Shown: in pieces, positions 42,194-44,939 of the stretch
Layout: every line of letters begins with the position of its first letter
Position numbering within the stretch: the first letter of the stretch is position 1
Assembly: GCA_903875575.1 (NCBI GenBank)
Contig: CAIQWJ010000028.1
Span: 62,001-126,000 of the forward strand
Direction: 5' to 3'
Length of the DNA stretch: 64,000 bases
From: an uncultured Acidobacteriia bacterium
Lineage (GTDB): Bacteria; Acidobacteriota; Terriglobia; Bryobacterales; Bryobacteraceae
Position numbers and translations under genes: made by a program
The notes under the pieces: generated by a model
Told to the model about the DNA's origin: nothing
What the model saw: the letters and a program-made list of their open reading frames with translations, nothing else
The model's database searches: none

Positions 42194-43435
42194 TCATGCG
42201 CTCCGCCTTTGTTCAAAGCCGGCGAACAACTGCTGTTTCGCTTTGCGCATCTTTGTCGCCGCTCCGGTATCGCTGTCAGCGGCGGCCAGCCGGTCCAGTT
42301 GCTCCACCGTCTCGTCATCTTTCAGAAAACCGGCCAGTCCGGGTAACTGGCGCAGTATTTCCCACGGCGTCGCGTACCAGTTGTAGACACTGACGGTCTT
42401 GCCCTTGCTGTCCTTTTTCGTTTCCGGCACGCCGCACGGCCGGTGAAAGTTCAGGTAAGGGTTGAAGTGCGTTTCGTAAAATGCATTGATCGCTGCCGCG
42501 TGTTCCTTTGCCATGTGGTCGAATCCCATATGCTTGCGAATCACGCTGCCATTCTTCGACTCCACCAGCCCGTTGTCGTTGGACTTCCGCGGCCTCGATT
42601 TCGTCTGTTCGATCAGCAGCTTGTTCAGCAGTTCAGCCACAACATGGTTGATGAACTCGCTCCCGTTGTCGGTATGAAAGCCGAGAATGCGGAATGGAAA
42701 CTGCTTCAGAAGCCGCTCCAGCAGGGGCTTCAGATAGCTTTCCGAAATATGCTCCACCGCGCCCACGATCTCAAACTGCGTGACTTCATCCACCAGATTG
42801 ATGTGATAAACACCCTTCACTCCGTCCTGATCGCCCTGATGCACCGTATCCACGCGCAGATATCCCGGTCTCCCTCCCGGCTCCGGTTTGCGCCGTACTC
42901 CGATCGCCACCGCTGTTGGCCTGGTCTTGCTGAAGACCATCACCCGTTCCCGGTAGCTGCGCAGTTGCCGCAGATTGTAAATATGCGCCGACGAGATGTG
43001 CGCCAGCCGCTCGTAGCGGGCGTCGGCGAATTCGTAATAACCGCGATACAGAAGCTTCCGCGTAGCCGGTCCGCTCAGGGTTTCGTGTGCTTCGTCCACT
43101 TCCGCCAGCAGCGCTACGTCGACCGGAAGATACGTTACCGTGAATCGCTTGCCCCGGCCCCGGCTCACCACGATCGTACCGTCGGCTACATACTGAGCCA
43201 CCAGTCGTGTTGCCTGCGCCCGGCTCAATCCCGTCACCTTCGATATGTATCCTTTCACCAGTCCCTTATCCGCGCGCGGCAGGCTGGAATAGCTGTGCCA
43301 GCAGAGCGTCGCCTGCGTCCATTCGTAGATTTCCCTCTGCGACCGGCCTTTGAAAGTCACCCCTTCGCTGCCTTCCATGAATGCCTGGATCTGCTCCAGG
43401 CTCTGCTGTTCGCCTTTGATCATGCTGATGTTCAA
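42194..43435 (-). CDS. DDE transposase with rve integrase core
   Basis: 413 residues. The N-terminal half has a helix-turn-helix-like DNA-binding region ('KGYISKVTGLSRAQATRLVA', about 61-80). The catalytic core is a retroviral-integrase fold with Asp196 ('YLRVDTVHQGDQ'), Asp256 ('LGFHTDNGSEF') and Glu292 ('NGLVESKNGSV'), giving exactly a DD(35)E spacing. All catalytic residues are intact, so the enzyme may be active. Clear terminal inverted repeats could not be found by eye, so the element boundaries are open; candidates are the hairpin cluster on its left and the tandem 24-bp repeats on its right (43458-43516). It may have carried or mobilised the adjacent micro-ORF cassettes. Confidence 0.9.
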   Translation of the reverse strand: MNISMIKGEQQSLEQIQAFMEGSEGVTFKGRSQREIYEWTQATLCWHSYSSLPRADKGLVKGYISKVTGLSRAQATRLVAQYVADGTIVVSRGRGKRFTVTYLPVDVALLAEVDEAHETLSGPATRKLLYRGYYEFADARYERLAHISSAHIYNLRQLRSYRERVMVFSKTRPTAVAIGVRRKPEPGGRPGYLRVDTVHQGDQDGVKGVYHINLVDEVTQFEIVGAVEHISESYLKPLLERLLKQFPFRILGFHTDNGSEFINHVVAELLNKLLIEQTKSRPRKSNDNGLVESKNGSVIRKHMGFDHMAKEHAAAINAFYETHFNPYLNFHRPCGVPETKKDSKGKTVSVYNWYATPWEILRQLPGLAGFLKDDETVEQLDRLAAADSDTGAATKMRKAKQQLFAGFEQRRSA

Positions 43436-43457: not shown

Positions 43458-43516
43458 CCTTCAGGCTCATCCGGCGTTGGAAACGCCTTGCCCCTTCAGG
43501 CTCATCTGGCGTTGGA
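43458..43516. repeat. two tandem 24-bp repeats upstream of the transposase
   Basis: CCTTCAGGCTCATCYGGCGT plus TGGA occurs at 43458-43481 and 43493-43516 with one mismatch, spaced 35 bp start to start, just upstream of the transposase start. Such tandem sites beside a DDE transposase gene are candidate transposase-binding sites near an element end, or operator sites for its expression. Confidence 0.55.
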
Positions 43517-43562
43517 CAAGACTCCAATAGCGCAGCACTTCCCAAAGGGTCTATGCTGAGGG

Positions 43563-43665
43563 TTCTACTCCGGTCCGTGCAGAGGCTAAGTTGCAGGAGA
43601 TTCCGGACTCCAAAAGCAAACCCCGCCATTACCGGGCGGGGTCTGCGCGTCAACCTGGAGTAGAA
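43563..43665 (+). ncRNA. folded leader RNA of micro-ORF copy 1
   Basis: About 103 nt that close into a three-helix structure. The closing stem is TTCTACTCC (43563-43571) with GGAGTAGAA (43657-43665), extended past one bulged T by GGT/ACC (43572-43574 with 43653-43655) and then CGTGCAGA/TCTGCGCG (43576-43583 with 43642-43649, one G-U). Inside are TTGC/GCAA plus GGAG/CTCC (43591-43619) and a GC hairpin CCCCGCC/GGCGGGG (43621-43641). The 3' end of the closing stem overlaps the Shine-Dalgarno AAAGGAG (43664-43670), so folding should affect translation. No known RNA family recognised. Confidence 0.6.
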
Positions 43666-43677
43666 AGGAGAACGCTT

Positions 43678-43761
43678 ATGCTTCTTCTGATGTTGTTGCT
43701 CGTACGTCTGCTTGTAAAGAGACTGCGACGACTGGGCATCAAAATCGACTTCTGGTTTTGA
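43678..43761 (+). CDS. 27-residue hydrophobic/basic micro-protein, copy 1
   Basis: ATG 43678 follows a perfect AAAGGAG with 7-nt spacing. The peptide starts 'MLLLMLLLVRLLVKRLRR', a Leu/Val/Met-rich helix with Arg/Lys spaced to make it amphipathic, and ends 'IKIDFWF'; total 27 residues. The second copy (44076-44159) encodes exactly the same peptide despite a nucleotide change (CGA to CGG at an Arg codon). Short, membrane-seeking, Leu-rich peptides with strong Shine-Dalgarno, structured leader and tandem copies are the hallmark of type I toxins (Ldr, Ibs, TisB classes). That is an inference; a leader peptide or antimicrobial-like peptide are alternatives. Confidence 0.65.
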   Translation: MLLLMLLLVRLLVKRLRRLGIKIDFWF

Positions 43762-43775
43762 GCCTTAGCCATGGG

Positions 43776-43800
43776 GGTCAGCGTCTTGCGGTCGCTGGCC
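43776..43800 (+). terminator. hairpin 3' of micro-ORF copy 1
   Basis: GGTCAGCG (43776-43783) pairs with CGCTGGCC (43793-43800), one T-G wobble, 9-nt loop TCTTGCGGT. In copy 2 the stem is identical while the loop is ATCAGCAGT. It lies 14 bp after the stop codon. There is no T-run, so it may stabilise or process the mRNA rather than terminate it. Confidence 0.5.
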
Positions 43801-43894
43801 TCCACAGCATCAATTTACCACATTTTCGCCCTCGCACCAATTACCCCAAATCCGCCGCGGTGGGGCAGAACGTTTTCGTCTGCCCAGAAGGAAA

Positions 43895-43930
43895 GGTAAT
43901 ACCACCAAAATCTTCAATGGGCCAATAGCG
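43895..43930 (+). repeat. 36-bp direct repeat, copy 2
   Basis: Same orientation as 41879-41914 with three mismatches. Its last nine bases, CCAATAGCG, are also the first bases of cassette copy 2, and the same CCAATAGCG begins cassette copy 1 (43524). The repeat therefore seems to abut the cassette, suggesting that cassette and repeat were one unit before the transposon segment was interposed or duplicated. Confidence 0.75.
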
Positions 43931-43960
43931 AAACGATTCCCAAAAGGTCTATGCTGAGGG

Positions 43961-44063
43961 TTCTACTCCGGTCCGTGCAGAGGCTAAGTTGCTGGAGATT
44001 CCGGACTCCAAAAGCAAACCCCGCCATTTAGGGGCGGGGTCTGCGCGTCAACCTGGAGTAGAA
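43961..44063 (+). ncRNA. folded leader RNA of micro-ORF copy 2
   Basis: All helices of copy 1 are present at +398: TTCTACTCC (43961-43969) with GGAGTAGAA (44055-44063), the inner GGT/ACC and CGTGCAGA/TCTGCGCG extension, and the CCCCGCC/GGCGGGG hairpin (44019-44039). The GC-hairpin loop reads ATTTAGG here against ATTACCG in copy 1 while the stem is unchanged, which argues that the stem, not the primary sequence, is being kept. Confidence 0.6.
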
Positions 44064-44075
44064 AGGAGAACGCTT

Positions 44076-44159
44076 ATGCTTCTTCTGATGTTGTTGCTCG
44101 TACGTCTGCTTGTAAAGAGACTGCGGCGACTGGGCATCAAAATCGACTTCTGGTTTTGA
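44076..44159 (+). CDS. 27-residue hydrophobic/basic micro-protein, copy 2
   Basis: Same peptide as copy 1, same AAAGGAG Shine-Dalgarno at 7-nt spacing. The only nucleotide difference in the 84-bp ORF is a synonymous Arg codon. Identity of the peptide may reflect selection or very recent duplication; the divergence in the flanking loops and spacers favours some selection on the ORF and stems. See copy 1 for the functional hypothesis. Confidence 0.65.
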   Translation: MLLLMLLLVRLLVKRLRRLGIKIDFWF

Positions 44160-44173
44160 GCCTTAGCCATGGG

Positions 44174-44198
44174 GGTCAGCGATCAGCAGTCGCTGGCC
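44174..44198 (+). terminator. hairpin 3' of micro-ORF copy 2
   Basis: GGTCAGCG (44174-44181) and CGCTGGCC (44191-44198) with loop ATCAGCAGT. Stem identical to copy 1, loop different in most positions. No T-run. Confidence 0.5.
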
Positions 44199-44430
44199 TC
44201 CACAGCATCAACTTACCACATTTCCCTCCCCTCGCCAATACCCCCAAATACCAGCCAACCGCCTTGCCGGAAGCCAGTCACAACGATTTCAAAATATCTC
44301 ACCAATCGAATCAGTGCCTTGCGAGCCGCACACCCCTCGACCCTCTTTCCGCGTGGTATTTTTTCGGGCAGGGACAACTGCATGCACAGATGCCGACAAG
44401 CTACGGACGGGCCGGTAAAAACGCACACCG

Positions 44431-44939
44431 CCAAATTGGCTTCGATTTGTAATTTCACATTTCGAGGCGCGAAATGTCCCAACCGCCTTTGGGTTGGGAT
44501 CTCTCAGGGTCCGGCACCACGAACCGCCAACCACCTGAAATTGGCTTCGCTTTGTAATTTCACATTTTCCGCTCAGCCGCGGACCAGCGCCCCCAAATCG
44601 GCTCCGTTTTGTAAATCCGCAAATCTCATTTTGCCGCAGCGTCCCGAGTCCGGTTCTGACCTGCCGCCCGCCCTGGGACCGACAACCGCTAACCGCAACA
44701 ATACCCAGGACATCCTTCCGGAACCGATTCGTTTTTTCGAAAGCCTGATTCGCGCCCCGCACATCCCACTTCGCGCCATCCGCCCAGCCAAATCGGCTCC
44801 GTTTTGTAATTTCACGTTTTGCGTCCATCGGCGAATCTGCGGGAGTAGCACGCACCCGCCTGGCCACGTAACCGCTAACCACCACATTCCCCGCAACTTC
44901 CGCGCAAATCGGATTCGTTTTTTCGACCACACATTTCAC
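44431..44939. repeat. family of degenerate 33-bp direct repeats upstream of recO
   Basis: At least four copies of a unit of the form CAAATYGGCTYCGNTTTGTA followed by ATTTCACRTTT occur at 44431-44464, 44536-44568, 44593-44632 and 44788-44820, with two weaker relatives at about 44722-44744 and 44904-44939. Spacing is irregular (about 50-200 bp). On the minus strand the units would read as 'KCEITKRSQFG'-type strings, a motif I associate with intergenic repeats in Planctomycetes and Acidobacteriota. Although one plus-strand frame stays open through the whole region into recO, it is not convincing protein. 44160-45056 otherwise contains no gene. Confidence 0.65.

Follow-up and report, generated by a model that had tools for sequence, protein, structure and literature searches.

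A Candidate Type I Toxin-Antitoxin-Like Cassette Family in Bryobacteraceae

Among the type I toxin-antitoxin systems, ldr and ibs of Escherichia coli occur as tandem or repeated near-identical copies, and the zorO and tisB antitoxins are encoded upstream of the toxin and act on its 5′ UTR. In txpA/RatA of Bacillus subtilis, as in bsrG/SR4, the antisense gene starts downstream, the transcripts overlap from the 3′ end, and accessibility of the Shine-Dalgarno (SD) sequence is part of the control. In aapA3/IsoA3 of Helicobacter pylori, the SD is masked by local hairpins, including one in the ORF itself, and an antisense RNA acts as antitoxin (PMC6733600). Until one 2025 candidate from Cyanobacteria, the known type I systems all came from Proteobacteria, Firmicutes and Tenericutes, a narrow phylum range in which search bias is suspected (PMC12390103). 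In the open-access literature we found no paper combining Acidobacteria or Acidobacteriota with type I systems, and the cassettes described here look to be a toxin-antidote family not described before, from a phylum without reported systems of this type.

The window, that is, the whole 64,000-nucleotide stretch of DNA analysed, contains a direct repeat (43524-43823 and 43922-44221, each 300 nt, 95% identical) that bears out the two near-identical units of the original prediction, with the correction that 398 bp is their start-to-start distance. Also as predicted, each unit carries an AAAGGAG, conserved hairpins (the leader hairpin P4 was already among those noted) and a 27-codon ORF for an identical peptide, the sole difference between the ORFs being one synonymous base (CGA/CGG). 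The unit reaches beyond the ORF, however, and needs extending to include a promoter upstream and, downstream, a 3′ hairpin and an antisense promoter, to about 43840 and 44238:

43524..43840, + strand: cassette copy 1, whole unit, from sense promoter to antisense -35
43922..44238, + strand: cassette copy 2, whole unit

The window unit folds at z = -4.9 relative to shuffled sequences, and its origin by chance is excluded because it recurs at about 10 other sites in the host genome and in 19 other genomes. On the sense strand the predicted elements are:

43552..43557, + strand: copy 1 sense -10, TATGCT, whose own -35 is poor
43950..43955, + strand: copy 2 sense -10, TATGCT
43563..43677, + strand: copy 1 structured 5′ leader, with P1 (43563-43571/43657-43665), a P3 hairpin and P4 (43620-43627/43635-43642)
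43961..44075, + strand: copy 2 structured 5′ leader
43666..43688, + strand: copy 1 SD-masking hairpin P5, in which AGGAGAA(C)GC pairs with GC-TTCTTCT of codons 1-4 and the start codon lies at the loop
44064..44086, + strand: copy 2 SD-masking hairpin P5

By a consensus logic borrowed from E. coli, on which the -10 and -35 calls on both strands rest, a -10-like TA...T stands 8-16 nt upstream of the leader in 30 of 42 copies, as against 11% in shuffles, and TTGACA-like matches for the sense -35 peak only at a spacing of 17-18. The sense transcript would start at the 5′ strand of P1, the partner strand of which sits just before the SD. In swap tests, which correct for relatedness among copies only in part, P1 scored -15.1 with its own partners and -13.7 (sd 0.32) with swapped ones, and P5 -13.7 kcal/mol and -10.9 (sd 0.32), respectively, with none of 20,000 swaps as good in either case. 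Because the copies are related, the swap and count tests overstate independence, and this duplicate-rich family inflates the counts. P5, predicted in nearly all copies, pairs the SD with codons 2-4 and leaves the start codon at the loop; its flanking pairs co-vary across copies (GGU/ACC, GGAC/GUCU, GGUG/CAC). As P5 occupies the SD in this way, we propose that the full-length mRNA would be poorly translated, and the predicted hairpin would give the SD-masked toxin mRNA that is common, if not universal, in type I systems.

The peptides are encoded at:

43678..43761, + strand: copy 1 ORF (27 codons plus stop; 27 aa, MLLLMLLLVRLLVKRLRRLGIKIDFWF), candidate toxin
44076..44159, + strand: copy 2 ORF (27 codons plus stop), identical peptide, one synonymous difference

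Across 49 clean cassettes, the peptide is about 25-28 aa long (ORFs of 24-29 codons from the SD), and its consensus consists of a hydrophobic first 12-14 residues followed by RxRR and a KxKIxIxL tail. The first 12 residues have a mean hydropathy of 2.85 and the whole peptide a mean net charge of +4.2; the hydrophobic stretch, at 12-14 residues, is short for a full transmembrane helix. The peptide is under purifying selection: in 19 independent closest pairs drawn from these cassettes, pS was 0.294 and pN 0.098 (pooled dN/dS about 0.28), and the real constraint is probably stronger, because overlapping RNA signals also constrain synonymous sites. Other copies thus keep the peptide with mostly silent changes, the pattern that the original prediction had proposed to look for, and the ORF shares with type I toxins a small size (<60 aa), hydrophobicity and conservation as protein. 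One apparently dying copy (L059, G008:C44:28442) has lost its leader and has proline and glycine changes in the hydrophobic stretch.

The claim that the peptide differs from known type I toxins held in every collection searched: there was no match in Pfam or NCBIfam at E up to 1, in PHROGs or PADLOC, or, for the family peptide profile, among PDB chain sequences at E up to 5. In Rfam there was no match at E up to 5 except chance lncRNA hits, and none above the gathering score. PDB chain and library searches gave no peptide homology to the aapA/IsoA family, and for the Ldr/Fst superfamily there was neither a PxxxGC in the alignment nor a family profile match. By these comparisons, the cassette peptide appears to have no detectable sequence relation to known type I families.

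Behind the ORF, the opposite strand carries what we read as a second gene:

43772..43804, + strand: copy 1 3′ hairpin P6 (TGGGGGTCAGCG/CGCTGGCCTCCA), 5′ stem of the predicted antisense RNA
43812..43840, - strand: copy 1 antisense promoter, with -35 TTGGTG (43840-43835), 17-nt spacer and extended -10 TGG-TAAATT (hexamer 43817-43812)
44210..44238, - strand: copy 2 antisense promoter, TTGGCG-17-TAAGTT with TGG extension
43612..43805, - strand: copy 1 predicted antisense RNA, candidate antitoxin, about 194 nt, ending at the intrinsic terminator GGCGGGGT-TTGCTTTT (P4)
44010..44203, - strand: copy 2 predicted antisense RNA, about 194 nt

The minus-strand pattern TGnTAnnnT lies directly behind P6 in 42 of 47 copies, compared with none of 47 on the sense strand, 1 of 47 within the 30 nt beyond and 5.6% among shuffled sequences. 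Among the antisense -10 elements there are 24 distinct 9-mers, in which TG, TA and T are kept while the inner bases vary, and so the pattern is an extended -10 element rather than a frozen repeat. TTGACA-like matches for the antisense -35 peak only at a spacing of 16-17 (2.2 versus about 1.4 elsewhere), even though the flanks further upstream of the -10 are largely unrelated between copies. P6 outperforms swapped partners (0 of 20,000 as good). As a sense terminator, P6 is unsupported, having no U-tract on the sense side, and no clear terminator for the sense mRNA was found. On the minus strand, the leader hairpin P4 reads as an intrinsic terminator: its T-run is on the antisense side only (mean 4.8 T versus 2.2 T in 12 nt; family form GGCGGGGTTTTGCATTTT), and a blind terminator scan reports the antisense terminator of copy 2. 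The predicted antisense RNA covers the whole ORF and the ribosome-binding site. Nearly all copies thus have a candidate gene for an antisense antitoxin, which lends support to the type I toxin-like interpretation originally put forward. At one further locus (L060, G010:C21:39912-40109), the P4 stem has decayed and the antisense T-run has lengthened, so that the sense strand shows nine A (AAAAAAAAACGCT).

The predicted arrangement most resembles aapA/IsoA, with which it shares a small membrane-type peptide of about the same length, the presence of several loci in one genome and a cis-antisense antitoxin (predicted for the cassettes), as well as local anti-SD hairpins, one inside the ORF, with compensatory changes in both (PMC6733600). 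It differs in phylum, in that the inhibitory 5′ structure of the cassette would be local (P1-P4) instead of a long-range 5′-3′ pairing, and in that its predicted antisense RNA stops within the leader of the toxin, where the two strands share a hairpin. As in bsrG/SR4, the antisense gene would start downstream of the toxin, the transcripts would overlap from the 3′ end, and SD accessibility would be part of the control (PMC8309996). The antitoxins of bsrG/SR4 and txpA/RatA, however, overlap the 3′ region, whereas the antisense RNA predicted here spans the whole ORF and ribosome-binding site, and their peptides are longer (38 aa in BsrG) and bear no relation to this one. The toxins of zorO/orzO, tisB/istR-1, ldr/rdl and ibs/sib of E. 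coli are likewise short hydrophobic peptides of about this size, and zorO also occurs in tandem or repeated near-identical copies and has a repressive 5′ UTR (PMC8309996, PMC11264685); unlike in size, the cassette peptide shows no similarity to the zorO, tisB, ldr or ibs peptides in Pfam, NCBIfam, PHROGs or PADLOC. The msoT1/msoA1 pair of Microcystis is, similarly, a candidate type I module from outside the classical phyla, with an antisense RNA to the ORF 3′ end and 3′ UTR, but it is a single locus in another phylum with another peptide, one that is toxic in E. coli (PMC12390103).

Using the peptide profile together with a covariance model of the leader, we found 13 cassette copies in the host genome, one of them split across the ends of contigs C38 and C100, and every further locus extracted from this genome has the same anatomy. 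The covariance model matched about 65 leaders, spread over 20 of the 237 Bryobacteraceae genomes searched, and the peptide profile independently found the same loci; the two checks suggested at the outset, for the ORF in other genomes and for the leader by covariance, thus agree. Neither tool found a cassette in 395 other genomes from across Acidobacteriota, and at the sensitivity used the family was not found in a plasmid collection, a phage collection or IMG/VR. Named records with the exact core pattern are MAGs of Bryobacterales, Bryobacteraceae, Acidobacteriia or Terriglobia, and the carriers are soil and freshwater Acidobacteriota. Tandem pairs recur at spacings of 373 to 404 bp (398 bp in the window, 377 in G048:C379, 404 in G018:C97 and 373 in G018:C8). 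For 26 of 45 copies the nearest relative by overall identity lies in the same genome, and amplification has therefore been partly lineage-specific. Homologues in which the ORF is broken while the repeat persists, named beforehand as evidence against the prediction, do exist, as a frameshifted tandem partner (G018:C8:62562) and decayed copies (G009:C54, G120:C452), but they are a small minority. Some copies are without a sense promoter; a promoter-less cassette duplicate in the host genome (L020:7444, G000:C72:36443), 5.4 kb from its parent, keeps the ORF, antisense promoter and antisense terminator.

Sequence statistics bear out the conservation of the peptide, the two promoters, P1, P5, P6 and the terminator on the antisense strand. 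Each cassette seems to be a self-contained toxin-antitoxin-like module with its own candidate antisense switch, and the best explanation is probably a new family of type I toxin-antitoxin-like modules with a mode of action like that of aapA/IsoA. Under the mechanism that we infer, the sense promoter would give an mRNA with a 5′ leader that closes into a multi-branch fold (P1 to P4) reaching as far as the SD, and P5, perhaps with P1-P4, would shut off translation of the full-length molecule. The extended -10 behind the ORF would drive an antisense RNA of about 194 nt, running from the 3′ hairpin through the ORF, the SD and one side of P1 as far as P4; its duplex with the mRNA would block translation and expose the mRNA to RNase III. 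Were antisense synthesis to fall, or the mRNA to be processed, the peptide would be made and would insert into the inner membrane by its hydrophobic N-terminus, with the basic tail in the cytosol, where it would presumably depolarise or arrest the cell.

All of the structural and promoter results would fit equally well if the product were a non-toxic small membrane protein, a regulator of stress or of a membrane partner, with a cis-antisense RNA limiting its synthesis. The tail, with its conserved KxKIxIxL alternation, could serve as a strand that binds a partner, and up to 13 copies of a lethal gene would burden a genome. We consider this unlikely, if worth keeping in mind: patchy occurrence, copies multiplied within particular lineages, tandem duplicates and decaying loci are commonplace among toxin modules and would be unusual in a small protein with a housekeeping role, and repression this tight, exerted in two ways, suggests that leaky expression does harm. 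Much less probable is a reading in which the ORF is secondary and the cassette chiefly yields the antisense RNA, as a dispersed small RNA with a strong promoter and terminator. These two signals are indeed the most regular parts of the cassette, but the peptide is conserved through mostly silent changes, and the sense promoter, the SD and the SD hairpin are kept, none of which a small RNA would need.

The 13 dispersed copies in the host, the 26 of 45 closest to a copy of their own genome, and the transposase gene adjoining copy 1 might instead suggest a selfish repeat of the MITE or REPIN kind with a fortuitous ORF, moved by that transposase, and the original prediction had inferred mobility from it. 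This explanation is largely refuted, and we give it hardly any weight. The IS481-like gene (42194-43435) has just one copy in the genome, with no other cassette in its vicinity, and is therefore incidental to the cassettes; no terminal inverted repeats were found, which together with the lack of linkage led us to reject an IS-mobilised element, and purifying selection on the ORF also stands against a selfish repeat. At copy 1, the gene may have replaced the left half of an upstream dyad that is conserved before many cassettes of this genus and is present in full at copy 2:

43890..43934, + strand: copy 2 upstream dyad, left half GGTAATACCACC, right half GGGCCAATAG; copy 1 is without the left half

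The dyad GGTAATACC...GGNGRTAT has 5 sites in the genome, 3 of them at cassettes, and these are too few for a wider regulon with a named regulator. Elsewhere in the genome it occurs as a solo site (L151, G000:C57:20771) and, without a full cassette, in a decayed remnant where the cassette promoter and the very start of the leader survive ahead of a c-type cytochrome-like gene (L153, G000:C81:6865). Between the IS481-like gene and copy 1, two 31-bp direct repeats CCTTCAGGCTCATCYGGCGTTGGA (43458-43523) are perhaps an IS end, and the intergenic region before recO (44433-44926) holds degenerate repeats, AAATYGGCTYCGNTTTGTAATTTCACATTT and AACCGNTTCGTTTTTTCGA-like, whose core 20-mer has 10 occurrences in the genome, 4 of them there. 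Finally, the structured leader with its SD-masking hairpin could recall a leader peptide or riboswitch-type element controlling a downstream gene, which is scarcely credible for cassettes at unrelated sites with non-homologous flanks, no evident common downstream gene set, no real Rfam match and, in the window, a recO that starts about 0.8 kb past the second copy.

Returning to the type I reading, we lean, with less assurance, towards a fuller version of it: a new multi-copy type I family native to Bryobacteraceae and the first in its phylum, in which P4 would serve two RNAs, as a branch of the toxin leader and as terminator of the antitoxin, and up to 13 copies per genome could cross-regulate as a network. 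A complete, well-conserved family in Acidobacteriota would support the suspicion of search bias, and its anatomy suggests a homology-free search route through micro-ORFs, in tandem or dispersed, that lie between the promoter and the terminator of an antisense transcript. In the host itself, the 13 divergent copies in one genome would be a natural experiment on antitoxin specificity between paralogues.
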